From: Sulfuriferula sp.
GTDB lineage: Bacteria; Pseudomonadota; Gammaproteobacteria; Burkholderiales; Sulfuriferulaceae
Direction of reading: 5' to 3'
Assembly (NCBI GenBank): GCA_013140765.1
Contig: JABFSE010000021.1
Span: forward strand, 1-64,000
Length of the DNA: 64,000 nucleotides
The notes under the pieces were generated by a model. The model did not search any database. It saw nothing but the letters and a program-made list of their open reading frames with translations, and was not told where the DNA came from. This document shows positions 26,893-40,809 of the stretch, piece after piece; the stretch's first letter is position 1, and every line of letters starts with the position of its first letter. Position numbers and translations under genes: made by a program.

Positions 26893-28146
26893 GTGACGAC
26901 GATTGCATTGGATTTGAATCGCCGCTGTACTTGCCAAACCTTGGACAGGCAACACTTATATCAGCAGTTAAGTGCCGATCCTGCTTTGCATGGTTTGTTT
27001 GATACGCTTGCTCACGCGCATTTATTCTCATCGACGGCTGTTTTTGTCTCTGCGCACACGATAACGGCAATCAATAAACTGGTCATGGCAGTAGAATCCA
27101 CATTGGCATTAACAACGTATCAGCAATCTGTTCTGGCTCATGCGCCTGCCATTGCACAGCTGGATGCGGGACCTACGGGTGTTTTCATGGGCTATGATTT
27201 TCACTTGGGTGCAACGGGACCGCAACTCATAGAAATTAACACGAATGCGGGTGGCGCATTACTCAATGCCGTATTAGCGCGGGCACAAAAAGCCTGCTGT
27301 ACTGAAATGGCGCAAGCGATACAAACCAATGCTGATTTAGCGCATATTGAGCAACGCTGGTTTGCCATGTTCCAACGTGAATGGCAATTACAGCGCGGTG
27401 ATGCACCGATAGGACGGATTGCGATTGTCGATGACGATCCTGCCTATCAGTACCTATATCCAGAATTCCAATTGTGCCAGCAATTACTGGCACGATTTGG
27501 CGTGGCAGTCATTATAGCTGATGCGCGTGATTTGATTTGGGAATCGGGTACGCTACAGCATGAGGGTCAGTGCATAGATATGGTTTATAACCGCCTCACA
27601 GATTTTTATCTGGATGACAGTGCTCATGCGGCATTGCGTTCGGCTTACCTCGCTAACGCGGTCGTGTTGACACCGCATCCACGTGTTTATGCGTTGTATG
27701 CAGATAAGCGCAATCTCGTTACTTTGAGTGATGCGGCGCAATTAACGGCATTGGGCGTGGATGAAGTGACCCGCGCTCAATTATTAGCGGGCGTGCCACA
27801 TACACAGTTAGTTCATGCGGACAATGCCGAAGCACTGTGGGCACAACGACGTAAGCTGTTTTTTAAGCCCGCAACAGGGTACGGTAGTAAAGCCGCTTAT
27901 CGTGGTGATAAATTAACACGGCGGGTGTGGGAAACGATATTAGCGGGAGATTATGTCGCTCAAAAAATAGCACCGCCTAGCGAGCGTATCGTTAGTGCGG
28001 AAGACGCAGACAGCGCATTAAAGCTGGATGTGCGCGGATATGTTTATCAAGGCGAGGTGCAATTGCTGGCGGCACGTTTGTACGCTGGGCAAACCACCAA
28101 TTTCCGCACACCAGGCGGTGGTTTTGCACCAGTTTTTGTTGTTTGA
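26893..28146 (+). CDS. ATP-grasp-like protein, function unknown
   Basis: This 417-residue protein is probably an ATP-grasp ligase-type enzyme, though I do not recognise a named family. The middle has LIEINTNAGGALLN, a strand-loop with Glu and Asn typical of metal or substrate binding. The C-terminal half has FKPATGYGSKA (a glycine-rich, lysine-bearing nucleotide loop), YVAQKIAPPSER, LDVRGYVY and TTNFRTPGGGF, an order reminiscent of circularly permuted or degenerate ATP-grasp folds. The start is GTG at 26893, after GGGCGG; an earlier ATG in frame is not available. It lies 15 bases before the J-domain gene and probably shares its transcript. Confidence 0.6.
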   Translation: MTTIALDLNRRCTCQTLDRQHLYQQLSADPALHGLFDTLAHAHLFSSTAVFVSAHTITAINKLVMAVESTLALTTYQQSVLAHAPAIAQLDAGPTGVFMGYDFHLGATGPQLIEINTNAGGALLNAVLARAQKACCTEMAQAIQTNADLAHIEQRWFAMFQREWQLQRGDAPIGRIAIVDDDPAYQYLYPEFQLCQQLLARFGVAVIIADARDLIWESGTLQHEGQCIDMVYNRLTDFYLDDSAHAALRSAYLANAVVLTPHPRVYALYADKRNLVTLSDAAQLTALGVDEVTRAQLLAGVPHTQLVHADNAEALWAQRRKLFFKPATGYGSKAAYRGDKLTRRVWETILAGDYVAQKIAPPSERIVSAEDADSALKLDVRGYVYQGEVQLLAARLYAGQTTNFRTPGGGFAPVFVV

Positions 28147-28161
28147 AATACGGAATTGACT

Positions 28162-29241
28162 ATGATTAAACCGCTACAAATCTCGACAGCGCAGGTTCAT
28201 GCTACCTTGACCCCCGCACAAAAAAAATTCAATGCCACGCTTAAAAAAATTGCCGCACAACAAACTTTATTAGCTGATTGGCAAACCGAATTAAGCGCGG
28301 CACAAAATATAGCTATCCAAAAAATAGAGCCGTTAAAACAAGCTATGCGTGACCATCAGGCGGCTATGATAACCATGTTAGATAATGCCTATAAAACAGA
28401 AAAATTCACTTACAATCAACAAGATAAAATATCCAGCTTGATTATGGCTATGTGCGCTGAATTGATAGAGATGGCAGGGCGTGATGAGCTAAAGCCAGTA
28501 TATAACCAATATAGTGCATCAGATTATGATACCGAAGTCGCCGAAGATAACGCATTTGAAGCGCAGTTATTACAGGATATTTTTGCCGCGCAATATGGTA
28601 TGACGCTGGATGCGGACGATGAGCTGGATTTGACTGACCCTGATAGGGTGGCGGCGCGATTACACGAAAAATGTGCGGCGCGAGCACGTGAAGCAGAGGC
28701 GCAATCGAATAACCGTAAAAAAACAGCCAAGCAGTTAGCGCAAGAAGCGCGTGAGCAAGCGGAATCTACTGGCATCAGTAAATCTATCCAGGCAGTTTAT
28801 CGACAATTAGCCACAGCCCTGCACCCAGACCGTGAACCAGACCCTGTCGAGCGTGAGCGCAAAACTGCGTTGATGCAACAAGTGAACGTGGCATATAGCA
28901 AAAAAGATTTACTACAGTTGCTGGCGTTGCAATTATCCGTAGCACAAATCAACCAAGACAACATCAATACCATAACGGAAGATAAGCTAAAGCATTACAA
29001 TAAAGTGTTGACCAAGCAGTTAAGTGAATTACAAGAAGAGGTGGTGATGCTAGAAATGCAGGTGCGGCAAATGCTAAATTTGGACGACTATATGCTGATT
29101 TCACCGAAAAAAATTACCCAGTTATTGAAACAGGATATACACGGTTTGCAAAACGAAATTGCCCGTATTCAGTACGATATACGCGCATTTAGCGATGTGA
29201 AGTACTTAAAAAGCCGGCTTAAAAGCTATCAGCCTAGTTAG
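28162..29241 (+). CDS. J-domain (DnaJ-like) protein, function unknown
   Basis: This 359-residue, mostly helical protein has a J-domain-like segment around residues 210-260: SIQAVYRQLATALHPDRE includes the HPD tripeptide that stimulates DnaK, and AYSKKDLLQLLALQ follows. Long charged and Ala/Gln-rich helices before (15-70, 170-205) and after (270-355) suggest coiled coils. It lacks the zinc and substrate domains of DnaJ, so it would be a type III J-protein. The ATG at 28162 follows CGGAA; a TTG at 28156 is in frame. Its substrate is unknown; the neighbour is an ATP-grasp-like gene. Confidence 0.7.
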   Translation: MIKPLQISTAQVHATLTPAQKKFNATLKKIAAQQTLLADWQTELSAAQNIAIQKIEPLKQAMRDHQAAMITMLDNAYKTEKFTYNQQDKISSLIMAMCAELIEMAGRDELKPVYNQYSASDYDTEVAEDNAFEAQLLQDIFAAQYGMTLDADDELDLTDPDRVAARLHEKCAARAREAEAQSNNRKKTAKQLAQEAREQAESTGISKSIQAVYRQLATALHPDREPDPVERERKTALMQQVNVAYSKKDLLQLLALQLSVAQINQDNINTITEDKLKHYNKVLTKQLSELQEEVVMLEMQVRQMLNLDDYMLISPKKITQLLKQDIHGLQNEIARIQYDIRAFSDVKYLKSRLKSYQPS

Positions 29242-30637: not shown

Positions 30638-31738
30638 ATGCAATCCACACCTAACCACTTAGCGGGTACAACAATGCTGTTCCGCGCACTTGATGCGGCC
30701 AAAAATTGGCGTGCATTAGGCCTGCTAATAGCGACCACAATCACGGCAATCCTTATTACTGCTATTTTTGGTTTTATTGCTTCACGTTTTGGCATGGGGA
30801 CTATGTCCGTAATAACGGGTGGTTTGGGTATGATTATCGCCATGATTGCTTTTTTTACTGGCTTTTCAGCGGTAGGCATATTGTTGATGGATGAAGCGAA
30901 ATTAAATCCTCAACGTAGCATATTAAACGCCCTATTTACGGGCTTGGCGACATTGCCACGCTTTGTCGGCATCGTGTTGTTAGAGACTGCGTTGGCAGTT
31001 TTGTTCGTGATCACATTAGTGGTGGTGCTGTTTCTTTGCAAAATACCCGTCTTAGGTACACTCCTGTACGCCATTGTTTATCCGATTAGCGTCGTATTAG
31101 TTGGGATGACTTATTTCGCTATCTTGTTTGTGGTCAACCCTTTGATTGCACCTGCGTTGTGGGATGGTAGTCGAGTGATGGAAGCATGGGCTAAATTATG
31201 GCAATTAGGCAAAACACAACTTATTCCTGTGCTATTGAATCAACTGGTTTTGGGCTTCATGGTATTTGTCGTCACAGGTATTTTGTTGGCGATTGTGGCG
31301 ATTGGGGGTGTGTTTACCACAGGCTTGTCTGCCATGATATTAGGCTCAGAAATGGGCGGGAGTTCAATGAGTGGGATATTGAACGGGTTGACCGCTATGA
31401 TGATGGGCGGTGGTAGTGGTTACGCAATGAGTGCGTTGTTTGGTTCGGCGATATTGTTTGCTATCGTGGGCGCGATTCCATTGTTGATATTGATTAGTGG
31501 TAATTGCCTTATTTATTTACAATACGTCCGTCATCTTGATGCGTCGGATTTAGAAGAAAGAATACGCAACTCTGTTGATGATTTGAAAGAAAAAGCGAAT
31601 ACGGCACGTGAGCAACTTAAACAGTCTACGCTTAATGAGCCTGCTACGGCCATGCCCGCATTAACCTGTCCAAATTGCTATGCTGACATTACTGACGACG
31701 ATGTTTTTTGTGGTAGCTGTGGTCATAAACTGAAATAA
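30638..31738 (+). CDS. multi-pass membrane protein with C-terminal zinc ribbon
   Basis: First gene of a five-gene run. The 366 residues contain about six hydrophobic segments (roughly 26-48, 58-83, 108-132, 138-165, 195-226, 266-292), then a charged helix (about 300-325), and a C-terminal zinc ribbon with CPNC and CGSCGHK (four cysteines at about 342-361). The zinc ribbon should be cytoplasmic if the orientation is the usual one. I do not recognise the membrane part. AGGGG at 30627-30631 precedes the ATG. The next gene starts nine bases after its stop. Confidence 0.82.
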   Translation: MQSTPNHLAGTTMLFRALDAAKNWRALGLLIATTITAILITAIFGFIASRFGMGTMSVITGGLGMIIAMIAFFTGFSAVGILLMDEAKLNPQRSILNALFTGLATLPRFVGIVLLETALAVLFVITLVVVLFLCKIPVLGTLLYAIVYPISVVLVGMTYFAILFVVNPLIAPALWDGSRVMEAWAKLWQLGKTQLIPVLLNQLVLGFMVFVVTGILLAIVAIGGVFTTGLSAMILGSEMGGSSMSGILNGLTAMMMGGGSGYAMSALFGSAILFAIVGAIPLLILISGNCLIYLQYVRHLDASDLEERIRNSVDDLKEKANTAREQLKQSTLNEPATAMPALTCPNCYADITDDDVFCGSCGHKLK

Positions 31739-31747
31739 GAGAAAAGT

Positions 31748-32833
31748 ATGTCCAAATTTTGTACAAGTTGCGGCGCAAAATCAGATGAGGATGTGGCGCG
31801 TTTTTGTGATGCTTGTGGTGCGTCTTTTTCGACGACGATTAAACCGCCTGTAAACCCGTCAGCACCCACGCTTAACACGACAATAGCAACCGCTAAAATC
31901 GTGAAAATAGCGGGGATAGCTGTATTGGTATTGATGATATTGATAGGCGTTATTTGGTTCTTTACTAAGCTCGCGTCGCCGCCCGATGCAGGTGCGCTGT
32001 CTGCGATACTTAATGAAGATAAGGTGTTTGCTGATGACAAAACATGCCTAACAGGTTTGCAATATGATAAAAAAACGATCAGTGTTCTAGGTTATGATAG
32101 CGTCAGCAAGCAATGGATGGATGCGTTAGTGAGTGCGGGTTTATATGGTGCGCCTGAAAAAACGGGAAGTGCGGGTTGGTTTTCATCAGCTAAATATGAA
32201 TATACACAAACACCACTAGGTCTAAAAGCTGTACGCAATGGTCAATTATGTTTTGCAAATGGCATCGTGGTTGACAGTGTCAACTATGCTGAACCGCGCG
32301 TAGTCAACAATACCCATCTCTTAAAAGGGCACTATAGTTATCACTATAGCGGCCTTGAAAAGTGGGCTAGTTTGCCTGCACTGGTAAAATTAGCACCCAA
32401 TATTTTAGCTAAAACACAGTTTGAAGAGGATGTGTTCTTAAGTGCCAATCAGCACGCATGGCGTATTGCAAGAGGTAGTGATAAAAAAACTGCCCGCGAA
32501 CTCGCTAAACTAGATGAGGCTAAAACGGAATTGGCAACACCTGTAACCAACACAGGTGGTTTATTTGCTTGGTTTGGCAATCTATTTACGGGTGTTAATG
32601 CTAATCCGCTGATAGGCAAATGGATAGGCGTTGATTCAGGTGTTGCTATAGAATTTACTGCTACCGACATGATAGAAGGTCGCCATATCGTTCCTGTTAC
32701 TTATCAAATGCAGGATAAAGCAGTGGTGGTCAGTGGTGCGGCTCATGAAGACCTTACCTTTGATATTGTTGATGCTGATCATATCCTGATGGATGCGAGA
32801 TTCTTGAAAATCACCCTTACTCGAGTAAACTAA
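31748..32833 (+). CDS. zinc-ribbon single-pass membrane protein
   Basis: Second gene of the run. The 361 residues start with a zinc ribbon (Cys5, 8, 20, 23, the FCTSCG/FCDACG pattern), followed by a linker, one membrane segment (about 51-72), and a long domain that would be outside the inner membrane. Its last 85 residues (from PLIGKWIG) form a strand-rich lipocalin-like module with GAAHEDLTFDIVDAD. No catalytic motif is apparent. The stop overlaps the next start by one base (TAATG), indicating translational coupling. Confidence 0.82.
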   Translation: MSKFCTSCGAKSDEDVARFCDACGASFSTTIKPPVNPSAPTLNTTIATAKIVKIAGIAVLVLMILIGVIWFFTKLASPPDAGALSAILNEDKVFADDKTCLTGLQYDKKTISVLGYDSVSKQWMDALVSAGLYGAPEKTGSAGWFSSAKYEYTQTPLGLKAVRNGQLCFANGIVVDSVNYAEPRVVNNTHLLKGHYSYHYSGLEKWASLPALVKLAPNILAKTQFEEDVFLSANQHAWRIARGSDKKTARELAKLDEAKTELATPVTNTGGLFAWFGNLFTGVNANPLIGKWIGVDSGVAIEFTATDMIEGRHIVPVTYQMQDKAVVVSGAAHEDLTFDIVDADHILMDARFLKITLTRVN

Positions 32834-33663
32834 TGATGAAATGTCCACATTGTTCTGCCGTCAATAAAGACGGTGCTAAATTTTGCGCGAGTTGTGGCGG
32901 CAATATGCTGGTTGCGCCAGTGCAAGCCGTTATGGCGACGAAAGTCTGCGAAAAATGCGACCATGCGTGTAAATTAGACGCGAAATTTTGCCCAAAATGC
33001 GGTGCTACCTTTAACAGCTCGGTGATTGTTGAGCCAATTCCAGAGCCAACACCAGAGCCAACACCAGAGCCAACACCAGTAACGCCTGCTCCCACCGCTT
33101 CTGTGGGTGTGACGACGCGTACTGCGTTCCCTGTTCTGCCTGTGGTGTTAGGGGTGACGACTTTGTTAGTGCTAATTGCTGCAGGGGCTATTTATTTAAT
33201 GAATAGTACGGCTAATATGGTGAAACCACAGCCTGTTGTTGCTGTTAAAGCCTTCCCAGCGGTACCCGAGGCTTTACCTCGCTTAGGTGAAAAGCAAGCT
33301 GATGTTGCGCCGCCCGTAGTTGCACCTGCATCTGCTGTTGAAGTGACACCGCCTCCTGCGCCTGTGGTAGTTGCACCACCTGCTATTGTTTCTATTGCGC
33401 CACCTCGCGCGGCTTCAGCGAAACCTGCACCTGTATCCACGCCTGCACCTAGCGTGGATGATAGGTCAAAAAGTATGCAAGTTGCTATAGATACAACGCT
33501 AGATGAGGGCGATAAGTGCATGGCACGAAAAAAATACGATTGTGCGATTGGGAGTGCAAACACGGTTTTGCGATTAGACGCGGGTAATGTTCGCGGCATG
33601 GACATGAAGCGTAAAGCGAAGGAAGCGCAAGACAAAGCACTTTCACAAATTGATATTCAATAG
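32833..33663 (+). CDS. double zinc-ribbon membrane protein with Pro-rich linker
   Basis: Third gene of the run, 276 residues. Two zinc ribbons lie at the N-terminus (Cys4, 7, 18, 21 and Cys39, 42, 53, 56), then a PEPTPEPTP stretch encoded by a 12-base tandem repeat, one membrane segment (about 98-120), a low-complexity Ala/Pro/Val region, and a C-terminal helical part (about 215-270, with Ala-rich pairs and Cys residues in GDKCMARKKYDCAIG) that resembles a single TPR-like hairpin. The function is unknown. The next gene begins eight bases after its stop. Confidence 0.82.
   Translation: MMKCPHCSAVNKDGAKFCASCGGNMLVAPVQAVMATKVCEKCDHACKLDAKFCPKCGATFNSSVIVEPIPEPTPEPTPEPTPVTPAPTASVGVTTRTAFPVLPVVLGVTTLLVLIAAGAIYLMNSTANMVKPQPVVAVKAFPAVPEALPRLGEKQADVAPPVVAPASAVEVTPPPAPVVVAPPAIVSIAPPRAASAKPAPVSTPAPSVDDRSKSMQVAIDTTLDEGDKCMARKKYDCAIGSANTVLRLDAGNVRGMDMKRKAKEAQDKALSQIDIQ
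33041..33076 (+). repeat. 12-base tandem repeat, three copies
   Basis: CAGAGCCAACAC is repeated three times in perfect tandem, encoding Pro-Glu-Pro-Thr units in the third zinc-ribbon gene. In-frame and length-neutral, it could vary in copy number by slippage. Confidence 0.85.
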
Positions 33664-33671
33664 AGGGATAT

Positions 33672-35417
33672 ATGTCTTACGAATATAGCTCGGAGAGTCG
33701 TAGCTTAGATTTACCTAATCCGTTCAAAATAGAAAATTACTTTTATTTTGGTGCGGGTGGGATTTTGTTTATAGCAGCAATCAGCCTGCTGTTGTTAAGT
33801 CGGCATGGTTTGTCAGATCACCTGTCATTCTGGAGTTTGTTGCCTTTGTTAATGGGCGTGTTTTTGCTTTTTAGTAGCATCAATTACTGGCGTAAGGCAT
33901 TAATGCAACTGCGTTTTTTCTTTGGGCGTGGCGAACCTAAAAGCCTGGCGGAAGACTTAAGCATAGATCAGGTCGGGTCTGGTCAGGGGGCTGATGCACT
34001 GAAAGAAACGTTGCGTCAAAATGCGCTGGTTTTTCAAGAGCCTCAAGGTGCGTTAAATGGGTTGCTATATACGTGGATACCGCAGTTAATTTATGCGCCG
34101 CATCCTATCCAGTTAATAGCGCAACGCCAGTTCCAAATTGGTTTGGCTGTCGGTGTGACTATCATTTCGCTATTGGTGTCAGTGTTAGCGTTGGCTAACG
34201 CGCAGGCTTCTTCATGGATGGGTGTGTTTTATTATGCGTTTACAATTTTCCTATTGGTTAAGCCGCTGAAACAAGGTACTGCGGCAGAAGCGGATTTAGG
34301 TATCAATGGCTTGGTGGGTTTAGTTGTGTTTGCTATTTTCGGACCAGTGATTATTCCTTGGATTAGTCGTGGTTTGCCTGATTTGAGCTGGCTGTCATTA
34401 AATTGGCAGGTTTTTTTGTTGTTATTGGCGGTATTAGGCGCGGTTGTTTTGTTTTTTGTGGCTTTAATTAAGCAGATGATACCGCCGCCAGCGACCACGA
34501 TGGCTTGTGAGCAACAGGCATTGTCAATGAATAGCCATCCAAAACAATTGCTTGATGAGTTGGAAAGAGCGTTGCAAACTGATTGGACAGAAAAAATACC
34601 CAATCGCCGATATGCGCGTATTTTCCCCGAAATCAATAATGGGGCAGGTAGTTTTCATAGTGAAATGCTAGAAGAAACGCAACCCATGCCATGTACGGAT
34701 TTTCGTGCTATTGATTTTGCGAGCAGTTTTGCCTTGCCGCGTTATCGTTGGTTGATGTGGCTTAATTCTATGGGCTTGATTTTTGTTTTGTCAGGAGCGT
34801 TAGCTGTTGTGATTTTTTCAGCGTTGCTGAATCCTGCTCATTTAGTGTCGGGGGTGACGGGTTTCCTCGCATTTGGAGCGGCAATGCTGTTAGTGGGTGA
34901 TTTTTGTTTTAAGGCTGGGCATGTTTTATGGGGGCGTTTTGACTTCCAATCCGAATTGATTTGGGTAGAAATGACGGGTAATTATCAATCAGCTAAATTG
35001 GATTATGGTAATCAGTTTACTGACCGTATCAAAACAGAGAAGCAAGTAATCAATATCGAAACGATGACTATGCGGGTGTGGGTCGCGCAACTAGAGACGG
35101 TTGCTTTTGGTAAAAACTCACAGCGCTGGTTGATAGGGATGCGTGGCTTACCTGATAAAGCGCGTTATTTGAGCCAGCATCTAAGCCAATTTGCCGCTGA
35201 TCAAAGTATTATTGTCGCCCCTGCTTCGGGTGCAGATATGCAAAAAGTAGCGAATTTAGGTGCGTTGAATCAATTGGGCGGGGCGAGTGGACGTTTGCCG
35301 AAGACGTTATTGCAAGCATTTGGTGATGCACCGCTTCGTTGTGCTGTGTGTAATGCCTTAGCAGAATCCGATGCGCGTTTTTGTGCTGAGTGCGGTACGC
35401 CGCTTAATGCGAGTTAG
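33672..35417 (+). CDS. large multi-pass membrane protein with C-terminal zinc ribbon
   Basis: Fourth gene of the run, 581 residues. Roughly eight hydrophobic segments (about 23-44, 53-73, 154-177, 181-196, 209-231, 244-268, 357-384, 390-412) are split by a cytoplasmic loop (about 270-350). A soluble C-terminal domain (about 415-545) precedes a closing zinc ribbon (CAVCNA and FCAECGTPL). The membrane part is unlike any family I know. The GGGAT near 33665 acts as ribosome-binding site. A 44-base gap separates it from the lipoprotein gene. Confidence 0.8.
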   Translation: MSYEYSSESRSLDLPNPFKIENYFYFGAGGILFIAAISLLLLSRHGLSDHLSFWSLLPLLMGVFLLFSSINYWRKALMQLRFFFGRGEPKSLAEDLSIDQVGSGQGADALKETLRQNALVFQEPQGALNGLLYTWIPQLIYAPHPIQLIAQRQFQIGLAVGVTIISLLVSVLALANAQASSWMGVFYYAFTIFLLVKPLKQGTAAEADLGINGLVGLVVFAIFGPVIIPWISRGLPDLSWLSLNWQVFLLLLAVLGAVVLFFVALIKQMIPPPATTMACEQQALSMNSHPKQLLDELERALQTDWTEKIPNRRYARIFPEINNGAGSFHSEMLEETQPMPCTDFRAIDFASSFALPRYRWLMWLNSMGLIFVLSGALAVVIFSALLNPAHLVSGVTGFLAFGAAMLLVGDFCFKAGHVLWGRFDFQSELIWVEMTGNYQSAKLDYGNQFTDRIKTEKQVINIETMTMRVWVAQLETVAFGKNSQRWLIGMRGLPDKARYLSQHLSQFAADQSIIVAPASGADMQKVANLGALNQLGGASGRLPKTLLQAFGDAPLRCAVCNALAESDARFCAECGTPLNAS

Positions 35418-35461
35418 GGATTAGTTTCGTAATTTTATTATTTAATTGGGAGTAAGTATTG

Positions 35462-36166
35462 ATGACAAACATATCCATGCGCCGTAGCACTGCATTATTA
35501 TTGGCGGTTACTGTTACTTTAGGCGGTTGCGCAACAACAGGGCAAAATAGCGCGGATAAAACAGGCGCATCCAGCAGTTCCGAGTGTAATCCCGCTATCG
35601 CCGCTGGGGTGGGGGCAGTAATTGGCGGCTTGCTAGGTGGCGGCACAAATACTTTACGTGGTGCAGCGATAGGAGCAGCAATAGGTGGGTTTGGTTGTAT
35701 GTTGGTCAATTATCGTTCTGAGCAGGTGAAAACGGCTGAACAGGCTAAGGATGATTATAAACTAGCCAACAAAGGACAATTGCCAAATGAAACAACAATA
35801 GTGAGTTACACCAGTGCATTTAAGCCTTCAACGATACGCGCAGGTAATAAAGCTGAAATGGATTCTTACGTTGAGGTGGTCAATGGCCGCAATGACCCTA
35901 ATCCTAAGCTCGAAGAAGAAATGAGTTTGTACAAACCTGATGGCACATTAGCGAAATCAGTGCGTAAGCCTGTTTCTGCAACGGGGAGCTCAGGCGGTTT
36001 CCGTAATAGCTTTATTGTACCTATGCCAGAAGGTGTGCCTGATGGGGTTTACCCAGTTAAAACTGCATTGTTTTTGAACGGTGTTAAAGTAAAAACGAAT
36101 ACTGCAAAATTACAAATTGTGCTCAATGAGCAACATTCAGTGACACAGTTCATCGCTTCAAAATAA
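35462..36166 (+). CDS. glycine-zipper lipoprotein, last gene of the zinc-ribbon run
   Basis: A 234-residue lipoprotein. The lipobox is Leu-Gly-Gly-Cys (Cys23). After a Ser-rich linker a glycine-zipper pair follows (about 45-80: GVGAVIGGLLGGG and GAAIGAAIGG), a pattern of outer-membrane proteins such as SlyB/OmpA-like and Rcp-type lipoproteins. A strand-rich C-terminal domain (about 100-225) includes PDGVYPVKTALFLNG. GGGAG precedes the ATG at 35462; a TTG at 35459 is in frame. It is placed with the upstream zinc-ribbon genes by direction and short gap, and closes with the terminator at 36170. Confidence 0.8.
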   Translation: MTNISMRRSTALLLAVTVTLGGCATTGQNSADKTGASSSSECNPAIAAGVGAVIGGLLGGGTNTLRGAAIGAAIGGFGCMLVNYRSEQVKTAEQAKDDYKLANKGQLPNETTIVSYTSAFKPSTIRAGNKAEMDSYVEVVNGRNDPNPKLEEEMSLYKPDGTLAKSVRKPVSATGSSGGFRNSFIVPMPEGVPDGVYPVKTALFLNGVKVKTNTAKLQIVLNEQHSVTQFIASK

Positions 36167-36169
36167 ATA

Positions 36170-36205
36170 TTTGCGCCTATGTTAGTGAAGTAGCATAGGC
36201 GCAAA
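36170..36205. terminator. bidirectional terminator between lipoprotein gene and cbbO
   Basis: A 12-bp perfect stem (TTTGCGCCTATG with CATAGGCGCAAA) and a 12-base loop, lying between convergent genes. T runs on either side are short (TTT or AAA), so efficiency is uncertain. Confidence 0.75.
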
Positions 36206-36220
36206 AGTACGCTAAACTGC

Positions 36221-38467
36221 CTATTTAGTTAGTGCCATAAATAGTTTAGGCAATTGCTCAGGTAGTCTGGTTATATTGTCGATGACGGTATAATGCTTGC
36301 CAAATATGTCACTTACATACTCACCTGCTTTGGGGTCGAGCGTGATGCAGTAGGTATAGATACCGTCTTGATCTAGTTCACGCACGGCGACTTTAGCGTC
36401 TTCTATAAGTAAACGTGGGTCTTTAGTGTCTATGTCCGCAGGCTCGCCGTCGGTTAATATCAGCAGCAGTTTTTTATCTGCCTGTTGATGCGAGAGATAG
36501 TGTCCTGCATGGCGGATAGCCGCACCCATGCGCGTAGAGTATCCCGCTTGCATGGCGGCAAGGCGGGCTTTGACAGGGGTGTCCCAGTGTTCAGTGTAGC
36601 CTTTAATATGCAAGTAGCGCACTTCGTGGCGGGTATTGGAGTGGAATCCGCTAATGGCTAATTTGTCTCCCATCTGCTCTATTGCCCAGCCTAGCAAGGT
36701 GACTGCTTCTTGGCTGAGTGCCAGCTTGCTTTGTTGGCAACCCTCGGGCACGTCGGCTAACGAAGCGGATAAGTCTAACAGTAGCGATACAGCAATGTTG
36801 CGCCCGTCATGGCGGTGGCTCATGTTGATACGTGGGTCGGGTACTGCGCCACTTTTGTAATCTATCAATGAGCGAATCGCGACATCTAAATCTAGCTCAG
36901 CACCTTCTTCCTGATAACGCAGGCGAACTTTGTTTTGCGGCTTGAGCAAGTCGATAATTTTTTTCAGTTGCTTTGCCAAACCTGCGTGCTTTGCCAGTAT
37001 TTTTTCTATGTCATTCGCATCGCCAGTCGGGTGTAAATGCTCATACACGCTGGCCCAGTCAGGGCGGTAATGTTCTGCGCCATAATCCCATTCTGGATAT
37101 AGTCGTGGTGGTAAACGGAATTCTGCTTGTTCTTCAGGTGGTGCTTTTTTTGGCGTGTTGTCGAACTCTTCTTCGTCACCATCTTCAATGTATTGCCACA
37201 TCAAGCGGTTATCGTCGCGATAATCGACTTCTGTATCGTCAAAAAACGTTTTGGCACTGAGATCGCTACCAACGCGAGTTTTGGCGATAAATTGCACGCC
37301 GAGTGTCACCATGTTTTTTGTACTGCTAATGCCTGTAGCCATTTCAGCGTGAAAGCGGGCGACGAAATCGAGTATATCCGCGTTGGTATAGCCATGCTGT
37401 GGGTCAAGTAGTGCACGAGACAGTGTGTACAGACGATGGCGTATGCATGCGTGACCTTCAGGACATGCGCCTTCTTTAGGGGTAGGGTGGATGGTAGCCC
37501 ACAGTTTACGCAAACCTGGGTAGCGTTGCATGGCGAGAAGCTCCACACGAGAATCTTCAAAAACTTCTACTGCCATACGTTGAAACGGGCTCAAGTTATC
37601 CGCGATGATGGGTGTCGTCCAGATGCGATGTGCGCTGATATGGGCAAGTAGGGCGCGATAACGGTCTATGCCACGCACACCTACCATGTCATCATAAACG
37701 TCGGGTAAATGTATGCCCCGCGCGTCAAAATACGAAATAGGCTTGCGTATTTCATCGTAGGTTAATGAGTAAGGCACAAAATTTGCATCGGCTTGCCATA
37801 GCCCACGCATGTATAAATCGAGTTGGCGTTCGCTGTCCGTAAATAGTGTGCCATGACGTTCACGTTGCATGACTGCACGGCTGTCAGGTGTTTGTAGTAA
37901 GAAGTATTCGCGCTGGCGATCGGGGTCGCTGGCATACGCTTTAACGCCGTAATCAACCCAGTTACGTAAACCGTTAAATGAGAGCGTACCTAATAATTGA
38001 GGTGTGGTGCTGAGAAACTCAATTAAGCAGGCACTGGCATACATGGAATCTATCCCATGTACTTTGGGTGTGGTGCGTTCCATCGTTTGCCAGACCAGAT
38101 GGAAATACTCATTGAATAAGCCGCGACTTTCTAGTGCGCGTGCGGCGGCAGTCAGGCTTTGTAACAGCGGGGCGATTGCGCCGCTGTTAGGTGTGCGTGT
38201 GAGTCTTTGTACGAAGGTAATTACGTCGGCTATGGTTTCCTCGCCGAGTAGCACGGCGACTTCAGGCATTTCTTCCAAAAATGCGAGTACAGGTGCTTCA
38301 CCACGCCCCATTTTACATAGCGTGCGTGCGCCGTCGATGTAGGCGATTTGTGCCGTAGGCGAGAGGCGTTTTTGTGCGTAAGCAAAGCAGTCAGGGAACA
38401 CGCTTTGCACGCGGGCAAAGCCGCAGGAAAGTGCTTTAATCTCGTCTATGAGCTGATTATCATTCAT
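36221..38467 (-). CDS. cbbO: RuBisCO activase component CbbO (von Willebrand A domain)
   Basis: CbbO works with the AAA+ ring CbbQ to remove tight-binding sugar phosphates from RuBisCO. About 748 residues: a long N-terminal helical region, an acidic stretch (IEDGDEEEFDN), and a C-terminal VWA domain (about 550-740) with the MIDAS motif DLSASLAD and LILTDGEPAD. The ATG ending at 38467 starts MNDNQLID; an ATG further upstream (38497) is in frame but overlaps cbbQ. The gene lies 13 bases downstream of cbbQ on the minus strand. It also resembles NorD, but the cbbM neighbour favours CbbO. Confidence 0.92.
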   Translation of the reverse strand: MNDNQLIDEIKALSCGFARVQSVFPDCFAYAQKRLSPTAQIAYIDGARTLCKMGRGEAPVLAFLEEMPEVAVLLGEETIADVITFVQRLTRTPNSGAIAPLLQSLTAAARALESRGLFNEYFHLVWQTMERTTPKVHGIDSMYASACLIEFLSTTPQLLGTLSFNGLRNWVDYGVKAYASDPDRQREYFLLQTPDSRAVMQRERHGTLFTDSERQLDLYMRGLWQADANFVPYSLTYDEIRKPISYFDARGIHLPDVYDDMVGVRGIDRYRALLAHISAHRIWTTPIIADNLSPFQRMAVEVFEDSRVELLAMQRYPGLRKLWATIHPTPKEGACPEGHACIRHRLYTLSRALLDPQHGYTNADILDFVARFHAEMATGISSTKNMVTLGVQFIAKTRVGSDLSAKTFFDDTEVDYRDDNRLMWQYIEDGDEEEFDNTPKKAPPEEQAEFRLPPRLYPEWDYGAEHYRPDWASVYEHLHPTGDANDIEKILAKHAGLAKQLKKIIDLLKPQNKVRLRYQEEGAELDLDVAIRSLIDYKSGAVPDPRINMSHRHDGRNIAVSLLLDLSASLADVPEGCQQSKLALSQEAVTLLGWAIEQMGDKLAISGFHSNTRHEVRYLHIKGYTEHWDTPVKARLAAMQAGYSTRMGAAIRHAGHYLSHQQADKKLLLILTDGEPADIDTKDPRLLIEDAKVAVRELDQDGIYTYCITLDPKAGEYVSDIFGKHYTVIDNITRLPEQLPKLFMALTK

Positions 38468-38480
38468 GATCTGCGGCAGT

Positions 38481-39293
38481 TTAGGCAAAAATCGCATCAA
38501 TTGCGTGGTCTAGTGTGTCACGGATGTCTTTATCGTCAGTGATAGGGCGCACTAACGCCATGCGGCACGCATCACGCGCAGGAATGCCGCCGTTAATCAA
38601 TGCCGCCGCGTAAACTAGCAAGCGAGTAGAAATGCCTTCGTCCAGGCCGTGACCCTTGAGTTTGCGTGCGGTTTCAGCAATACGGACTAATTTATCTGCG
38701 ATGTCCATGCTAATGCTGGCTTCTTTGCTGACAATTTCAGTTTCGACTGAGCACAGCGGGTAATCAAATTCCATCGCGGCAAAGCGTTGTTTAGTGGATT
38801 GTTTCAAATCTTTCATCAGGCTTTGGTAGCCTGGGTTGTAAGAAATTACTAATTGAAAATCAGGATGCGCGACGACTAGCTCGCCTTTTTTGTCCAGCGG
38901 CAAAGTACGGCGATGATCGGTGAGTGGGTGGATAACTACGGTAGTATCTTGACGCGCTTCGACGACTTCATCCAAATAGCAAATCGCACCGTGACGGGCG
39001 GCAAGGGTGAGCGGACCATCAACCCAGCGCGTGCCATTGGCATCGAGTAAATAACGACCGACCAAATCGCTGGCAGTCATGTCTTCGTTACAGGCAACGG
39101 TGATTAAAGGCTTGTTTAATTTCCATGCCATATACTCAACAAAACGCGATTTGCCGCAGCCTGTAGGCCCTTTGACCATCACAGGTAAACGCGCGTTGTA
39201 GGCGGCTTCATACAGAGTAACTTCGTTGTTTTGTGCTTGATAGTAAGGCTGTTCGGTGATTTGGTATTGGGTGATGTCGAATTGGGTAGTCAT
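38481..39293 (-). CDS. cbbQ: RuBisCO activase AAA+ subunit CbbQ
   Basis: MoxR-type AAA+ ATPase that forms the hexameric motor of the CbbQO activase. The 270 residues have Walker A GPTGCGKS (about 41-48), Walker B ICYLDEV, the sensor-1 region VISYNPGYQ, and the arginine-finger KQRF segment. It is close to NorQ but lies directly downstream of cbbM, so CbbQ is the better name. A terminator hairpin separates it from cbbM, so its expression may be lower than that of RuBisCO. Confidence 0.94.
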   Translation of the reverse strand: MTTQFDITQYQITEQPYYQAQNNEVTLYEAAYNARLPVMVKGPTGCGKSRFVEYMAWKLNKPLITVACNEDMTASDLVGRYLLDANGTRWVDGPLTLAARHGAICYLDEVVEARQDTTVVIHPLTDHRRTLPLDKKGELVVAHPDFQLVISYNPGYQSLMKDLKQSTKQRFAAMEFDYPLCSVETEIVSKEASISMDIADKLVRIAETARKLKGHGLDEGISTRLLVYAAALINGGIPARDACRMALVRPITDDKDIRDTLDHAIDAIFA

Positions 39294-39357
39294 TTTAGTC
39301 TCGCTGTATAGTGTGGATTATTCCACTAGGTTTTGCGGTGAAAACATACTGGAATAA

Positions 39358-39386
39358 AAAAGCCCCTGAAAATCCCAGGGGCTTTT
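39358..39386 (-). terminator. terminator hairpin between cbbM and cbbQ
   Basis: On the minus strand an 11-bp stem (AAAAGCCCCTG with CAGGGGCTTTT) is followed by a T run. It lies downstream of cbbM and upstream of cbbQ, and would limit read-through into the activase genes. Confidence 0.85.
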
Positions 39387-39388
39387 AA

Positions 39389-39427
39389 CGTACCGCCGCC
39401 CTAGAGCGGCAGTTTGCCTGGGGTACG
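39389..39427 (-). promoter_or_regulatory. structured cbbM 3' untranslated region
   Basis: Between the cbbM stop and its terminator, CGTACC pairs with GGTACG (39389-39394 with 39422-39427), enclosing a GCCGC/GCGGC hairpin (39395-39410). Such a stem may protect the mRNA's 3' end; that role is inferred. Confidence 0.4.
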
Positions 39428-39429
39428 GA

Positions 39430-40809
39430 TTACTTGTGTACGCCCAGTTTTTCACGCCAACCTGGGTAGATCTTGTCAGCATCGCCTGGGAATGACTCGA
39501 ATGCGCGAGCGAATTCTTTGTGTTCTTTAGCGAACTCAATAGGATCAGCCCCTGCTTTCCAGCATTCGTAAGATTGGCGTAGTGAAATCGCACCCGCAGC
39601 TGGGCTGTCGATGTGACCGTAAGCACCGCCGCCTGATGTATTGATAACGTTACCGTGACCCAAGTTCTCAAAGAAGCCTGGCAAACGCAATGCGTTCATA
39701 CCACCTGAGATGATAGGTGTGGTAGGTTTCATGCCGTACCATTTTTGGAAGTAAACAGGACCTTGTGCTTCATCACGTTCGATCATGTAAGCGATGTTTT
39801 TATCTGAGTTTTCACCTTCCATTTTGCCGTATCCCATCGTGCCTACGTGGATACCTGAAGCACCTTGTAAACGTGAGATTTTAGCCAATACAAATGCGGT
39901 ATAACCACGTTTAGCTGAAGGCGATGTAATCATGCCGTGACCAGCGCGGTGGTAGTGCAAGTATTGGTTAGGGTATTGACGACGAGCAGTGGTAATCATG
40001 CCTGGGCCGCCAACGAAACCATCAACCAAGAATGCGACTTTGTCAGCATCTGGTCCGAATGTTTCAAGGATGAAGTCAGCACGAGCACACATTTCGTAGT
40101 GGTCATCCGCCGTGATGTTGGCAGAGAACAATTTAGCTTGACCTGTTTCGTCTTGAGCGCGTTTCATTGCATCAGCAACTAAAGGAATTACTTTTTTGGC
40201 TGGGCAGAAAGTTTGGTTACCTTGTGGCTCATCGTTCTTGATGAAGTCACCACCTAACCAGAACTGGTAAGCAGCGGCCGCAAATGGCTCAGGACGCAAG
40301 CCTAATTTAGGCTTGATAATTGTACCAGCAATGTAGCCACCGTTTTCTATTGGGCGACCCAAGATGCGCCACATATCGCTGATGTCTTTAGAAGGACCAT
40401 CAAACAATTGGATAGCGCGTTCTGGTACATAGAAATCGTGGATTTTAGCGTGTTTAATATCGCCCATGCCCTGGTTGTTACCGATAATCAATGTCAATAC
40501 TGACACGATCATCATGCGACCGTCGGTGATGTTACGATCGAACAACTCCATAGGATATGCAATACGCATATCTTCAGTTGCTTCGTCGATGTAGTAAACC
40601 AAAGCGTCAACGCCTTTGGTGAAATCGTCAGTAGTAGAAACTTCAACGTTAGTACCTGTTGAAGATTCAGCAGCAAAGTGTGCAGCAGCTTCTAAGTAAC
40701 CGTGACCTGGGTTAGGGCACATTTTGTAAGCAACTAAAATGTGCTTGCCAGCTTTAATTAAATCTTCTTCTTTCAGACTAAGGTCTGAATAACGTGCCGA
40801 TTGATCCAT
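39430..40809 (-). CDS. cbbM: ribulose-1,5-bisphosphate carboxylase/oxygenase, form II
   Basis: Fixes CO2 onto ribulose 1,5-bisphosphate in the Calvin cycle. The 459-residue length and the opening [18 protein letters not shown] are those of form II (CbbM), which needs no small subunit. The carbamylated-lysine motif [14 protein letters not shown] is intact, as are [14 protein letters not shown] and [11 protein letters not shown] (loop 6 lysine). No cbbL/cbbS or CbbR regulator gene is present in the window. A form II enzyme has poor CO2/O2 specificity and suits low-oxygen or CO2-rich settings. Confidence 0.99.

Follow-up and report, generated by a model that had tools for sequence, protein, structure and literature searches.

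A conserved five-gene module of zinc-ribbon membrane proteins and a lipoprotein in Sulfuriferula, a candidate trans-envelope assembly

The nearest described logic to that of the locus studied here is found in the Bacillus subtilis pspA-ydjGHI operon (ydjFGHL), where several operon partners, membrane proteins among them, share zinc ribbons and the products form a multi-protein membrane complex (PMC11237479, PMC8581546). The Tol-Pal system offers a likeness in layout only, pairing an inner-membrane stalk protein with an OmpA-domain lipoprotein, and TcaA and GltJ show the order ribbon, transmembrane (TM) helix, extracytoplasmic domain within one chain. Predicted fold brings in the CTL/PNS1 (SLC44) proteins, the eukaryotic role of which is contested: PNS1 resembles CysZ (EI24), and the CTL fold has been argued to be incompatible with transport, with a non-transport role for the family (PMC13160678).

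In the window, by which we mean the whole stretch of 64,000 nucleotides analysed (Sulfuriferula sp., contig JABFSE010000021.1), five genes, here called g1 to g5, follow one another on the same strand with gaps of 9, -1, 8 and 44 bases (Table 1). Ribbons common to operon partners recur in g1 to g4, and g2 and g3 have the domain order of TcaA and GltJ. The earlier note on this DNA had described the same arrangement, and the open reading frame coordinates bear it out; Pfam matches and the sequence pattern agree with its count of five CxxC...CxxC ribbons over four membrane proteins, two of them on g3, and its reading of g5 as a glycine-zipper lipoprotein also holds (lipobox LGGC; glycine-zipper E-value 4e-5, just short of the Pfam cut-off). 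The start of g5 lies at 35459 or 35462 (235 or 234 aa), and the ATG at 35462, which stands 3' of GGGAG, gives the gap of 44. One transcription unit is the best explanation that we can predict for the five genes. A sigma-70 scan returned 8 promoter-like sites where 12.2 were expected by chance, a terminator scan was likewise uninformative, and the GC content of the block carries no foreign signature.

Table 1. Positions of the genes, ribbons and other features of the five-gene locus in the window
Feature	Position	Strand	Description
g1	30638..31738	+	366 aa; 6 TM predicted; CTL/PNS1-CysZ-like predicted fold; C-terminal zinc ribbon
Zinc ribbon of g1 (CPNC...CGSC)	31667..31720	+	Pfam and pattern
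g2	31748..32833	+	361 aa; N-terminal zinc ribbon, 1 TM, periplasmic domain, C-terminal lipocalin-like barrel (predicted)
Zinc ribbon of g2 (CTSC...CDAC)	31760..31816	+	Pfam and pattern
g3	32833..33663	+	276 aa; two N-terminal zinc ribbons, 1 TM, Pro/Ala-rich periplasmic stalk, C-terminal TPR-like helices (predicted)
First zinc ribbon of g3	32842..32895	+	Pfam and pattern
Second zinc ribbon of g3	32947..33000	+	Pfam and pattern
C-terminal TPR-like module of g3	33484..33660	+	By similarity; g3 itself without Pfam TPR match
g4	33672..35417	+	581 aa; 7 TM predicted; unnamed family; C-terminal zinc ribbon
Zinc ribbon of g4 (CAVC...CAEC)	35340..35393	+	Pfam and pattern
g5	35462..36166	+	Lipoprotein, lipobox LGGC, Ala at +2; glycine zipper; beta-rich C-terminal domain (predicted)
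Hairpin, likely terminator	36170..36205	+	Perfect 15-bp, between convergent ends of g5 and cbbO; z -4.75

The ribbons are unlikely to be accidents of composition. Shuffled sequences of g1, g2 and g4 reproduced the four-cysteine pattern in 3, 3 and 1 of 20,000 cases, respectively, and those of g3 in 117 of 20,000; IleRS is the sole further gene in the window with such a pattern. A profile search of the whole 2.18 Mb genome with Zn_Ribbon_1 gave four matches, all within the cluster, the weaker ribbon of g2 scoring below the threshold of that search. Against the copies in a congener (G003), pN is 0.15 for g4 and 0.13 for g5 while synonymous sites are saturated, so both genes are under purifying selection.

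Searches of the five proteins against Pfam, NCBIfam, PHROGs and PADLOC returned just ribbons, glycine zippers and weak matches, and in the PDB sequence searches turned up nothing beyond ribbons and chance similarity. No Pfam or NCBIfam family was matched by the bodies of g1, g2 or g4, so that for no fewer than three proteins of the module the principal part is without a model in either library. Neither of the single-chain resemblances amounts to identity: g2 scores 15.9 against the TcaA model (NF053815, NCBIfam cut-off 550), and against that of GltJ (NF033761, cut-off 450) g3 reaches 19.9, with the match confined to residues 69-213; for a GltJ analogue the literature offered nothing useful. 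The earlier note knew of no described operon of this make-up, and a literature search whose coverage stopped short of most subscription papers and all preprints returned none; the syntenic module is thus apparently, and provisionally, undescribed.

The model of g1 (pLDDT 86, pTM 0.75) gave Z 14.2 over 262 residues against PNS1 and 12.4 against CTL1 by VIA structure comparison, followed by three CysZ structures at Z 11.2 (211/227 residues aligned), 11.0 and 9.8; the next match fell to Z 8.1 over only 71 residues. Foldseek alone gave no significant E-value for g1. On this modelling, the membrane part of g1 has the CTL/PNS1-CysZ helical arrangement over most of the domain, a fold assignment of a kind that, for helical bundles, can also arise by coincidence. 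By predicted fold, the protein would then count the CTL/PNS1 proteins among its relatives, as a bacterial member of the group. It differs from them and from CysZ in lacking significant sequence or profile similarity and in having an extra zinc ribbon and an operon context. Membership of the CysZ/EI24 family can be set aside: ten g1 members gave no match to EI24 (PF07264) at E<=1, hhalign of the g1 profile against 18 open reading frames taken at EI24 matches was not significant (E 0.13, probability 0.5%), and the CysZ motifs ExVE and QYxDYPxDNHK (PMC5967866) are absent. Across the alignment of 20 g1 members, the invariant residues are mostly Gly, Pro and Trp, without buried charge.

The remaining proteins are predicted to reach into the periplasm or to span the inner membrane. 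The model of g2 (pLDDT 79, pTM 0.53) ends in a region, residues 282-361, that matches small lipocalin-like barrels (Tp0751, Z 10.2 over 80 residues), in a VIA comparison that barely covered the middle domain (about residues 75-260); Foldseek alone found no significant match. Two invariant cysteines after the TM helix, C100 and C168, are consistent with a periplasmic disulfide. In most relatives g3 likewise has one TM helix, and its periplasmic part contains 19-42% Pro+Ala (31% in the window). For g4, three homologues could be aligned. Read from its lipobox, with Ala at +2, g5 may be placed in the outer membrane, and g5-like relatives have weak MG2-like matches in the beta-rich C-terminal domain.

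The ordered set g1-g2-g3-g4-g5 occurs again in a genome from another family of the same order (G584), as a check of synteny called for by the earlier note found, at identities of 36/27/46/48% for g1/g2/g4/g5. The five genes are a real, conserved module whose parts recur together in bacteria that are not related. In the congener G003 (contig DMQT01000014.1) the end of g3 is followed by g4, g5 and an ftsK-like gene, at a site different from that in the window. Partial versions are present in about 15 further genomes, in the orders g1-g2-g3 (G051), g3-g1-g2 (G044, G170), OmpA-lipoprotein-g3-g1-g2 (G132, G639, G564), OmpA-lipoprotein-g3-g1 (G120), g3-lipoprotein-g1 (G108 and a Mycetohabitans rhizoxinica megaplasmid), g1-g3-g5 (G064), g3-g1 (G594, G568, G712, G489) and the end of g3 at a contig edge, then g1-g2 (G703). 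No lipoprotein gene lies beside the module in G051, G044, G170, G594, G568 or G712, and g5-like lipoproteins stand alone in G183 and G146. On the Mycetohabitans megaplasmid (NZ_CP062173.1, L138:5976-7226), a 416-aa double-ribbon g3 is missing from the gene table of the record; it sits directly upstream of the lipoprotein gene and the annotated g1.

Few genomes carry the module. Among 100 relatives searched, g4 was found in two of the 18 genus genomes, those of the window and G003 (a match in G052 is to the ribbon only). In the order, 20 of 399 genomes matched the g1 profile, G608 by its ribbon only; in the class, five of 321 did, of which one (G384) again by ribbon only and two shared with the order set; the additional matches of a phylum-wide search were ribbons only, with no further g1 body. 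With so sporadic a distribution, most relatives can do without the function of the module.

The earlier note had held that separate occurrence of the genes in relatives would speak against its view. The genomes divide this point: g1 and g3 stay paired, with g2, g4 and the lipoprotein as accessories that vary from genome to genome. A ribbon-bearing g1 has g3 nearby at 17 of 17 testable loci and a ribbonless g1 at none of four (G025, G073, G417 and the second copy of G489), a count from which G649 was left out, its locus ending at a contig end, and whose loci share descent and hence are not independent samples. The C-terminus of g3 also varies, being TPR-like, a basic helix or Cys-rich. The TPR-like type of the window recurs in G003, G584 and G064; the only g3 proteins with a TPR match in Pfam are those of G568 and, weakly, of Mycetohabitans. 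It goes with a glycine-zipper lipoprotein in the window, G003, G584, G064 and Mycetohabitans, whose neighbouring lipoprotein has a weak glycine-zipper match and an MG2 match of 1e-4, both below the Pfam cut-offs; the basic helix goes with the OmpA lipoprotein in G132, G639, G564 and G120. In the g1 tree the OmpA-type loci group in a single supported clade, so the correlation may reflect a single evolutionary switch. The Cys-rich module, of about 40 residues, ends g3 of G051, G594, G712, G703 and G114 (L063, L105, L110, L108, L071), and no family was found for it, the Pfam scan having covered the G051 member.

We put the probability at roughly 45% that the five proteins form a trans-envelope assembly whose zinc ribbons join its parts in the cytoplasm, its likeliest purpose being envelope maintenance or sensing. 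The core in the inner membrane would be g1, with its CTL/PNS1-CysZ bowl, and g4 would provide another membrane core. The protein g3 would span the inner membrane, its Pro/Ala-rich stalk crossing the periplasm to approach a lipoprotein of the envelope, which is g5 in the window and, in other lineages, an OmpA-domain and presumably peptidoglycan-binding one, while g2 would contribute a periplasmic sensor or binding domain. The cytoplasm-facing ribbons of g1 to g4 may hold the subunits together or recruit a common cytoplasmic client, and the whole could couple the inner membrane to the condition of the outer membrane or wall, by a logic comparable to that of Tol-Pal or PspA-YdjGHI. The resemblance to Tol-Pal has its limits, since the module has no TolQ/R proton channel and no TolB, g5 lacks an OmpA domain, and OmpA-domain lipoproteins are found only in relatives. 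What we infer most strongly is that g1 and g3 cooperate via their ribbons, because the g1 ribbon and the presence of g3 coincide; next in strength is that g3 reaches the lipoprotein, because its C-terminal type tracks the lipoprotein type. Both can be put to the test as rules: where g1 has a ribbon, g3 accompanies it, and the type of lipoprotein matches the C-terminus of g3. The earlier proposal of one envelope assembly is well supported as to a single module with shared ribbons, by the gene order in G584 and the pairing of the g1 ribbon with g3, and contacts between ribbons are inferred; of the stress, trafficking or transport roles it named, no specific function is so far supported. A larger claim, that this is a new trans-envelope machine of diderm bacteria, ribbon-assembled around a non-transporting CTL/CysZ-fold core and with a stalk matched to interchangeable lipoproteins, is tentative and we regard it as doubtful.

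We prefer envelope maintenance or sensing to other functions because of the points that stand against each of those. The proteins could be a transporter in which g1, g4 or both move a small solute or lipid, with the g2 barrel and g5 binding it beyond the inner membrane and the ribbons serving regulation or assembly. One of the best fold matches of g1, CysZ, has been described as a sulfate permease, a lipocalin/FABP-like barrel ends g2, and pstS adjoins the module in the window; however, pstS is not beside the module in G003 or G584, the five proteins include no ATPase or other energising subunit, an EI24-family protein is encoded elsewhere in the genome, and g1 has neither the motifs nor an EI24 match nor conserved buried charge, in a fold argued to be incompatible with transport (PMC13160678). 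We consider transport unlikely. A phage-shock-like response to membrane stress, with the ribbons recruiting a soluble effector as YdjG/YdjH recruit PspA-YdjI, appears less likely again. The B. subtilis partners do share ribbons and YdjG/YdjH anchor their complex, but PspA (PF04012) was not found in the Sulfuriferula genome itself (G000), just 3 of 17 carriers have a match above the cut-off, the five proteins contain neither an SPFH nor a TPM domain, and the module, with other membrane proteins, belongs to a Gram-negative envelope with a lipoprotein. The five ribbons of the operon might also act as sensors of zinc in the cytoplasm that govern the parts in the envelope. Ribbons of the Zn_Ribbon_1-like type are usually structural, and no zinc transporter or Zur-type gene lies among the scanned neighbours, which makes zinc homeostasis highly improbable.

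The sporadic distribution and the genomic site of the module bear on whether it is a fitness island that spreads horizontally and serves anti-phage defence or contact-dependent competition. In three congeners (G012, G013, G015) only 186-190 bases separate pstS from cbbO, so the block in the window fills an otherwise empty site; the spacer on the pstS side is still alignable, and on the cbbO side homology begins at the end of cbbO. In G003 the genes lie elsewhere, and glycine-zipper proteins are reported from a contact-killing system (PMC5380434). Against this, none of the five proteins has a PADLOC match, and no nuclease, toxin, immunity domain or integrase is found among them, which leaves such an island improbable. 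The present pattern may stem from transfer of the block or from its repeated loss, and composition does not tell the two apart.

The site varies further. At this place G014 lacks both pstS and the block; an asparagine-synthetase-like gene lies there between the homologues of two adjacent genes of the window (26893-29241; 417 aa, no family, and 361 aa, partial J-domain), an arrangement that marks 26.9-36.2 kb as a variable spot within the genus. Directly downstream on the opposite strand (36221-40809) are form II RuBisCO (cbbM), a CbbQ-type AAA ATPase and its VWA-domain partner (cbbO-like).

Ribbonless relatives of g1 occur in other settings. Those of G489 (L078:8037-9854) and G417 (L079:6877-7971), one of which is fused to an N-terminal half of about 300 residues, have no Pfam match. 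In G025 and G073 (L067/L068) the ribbonless g1 stands beside a set of proteins of 165 aa, 482 aa, 389 aa (one TM) and 510 aa (11-12 TM), which, judged by layout alone, resembles an efflux operon.
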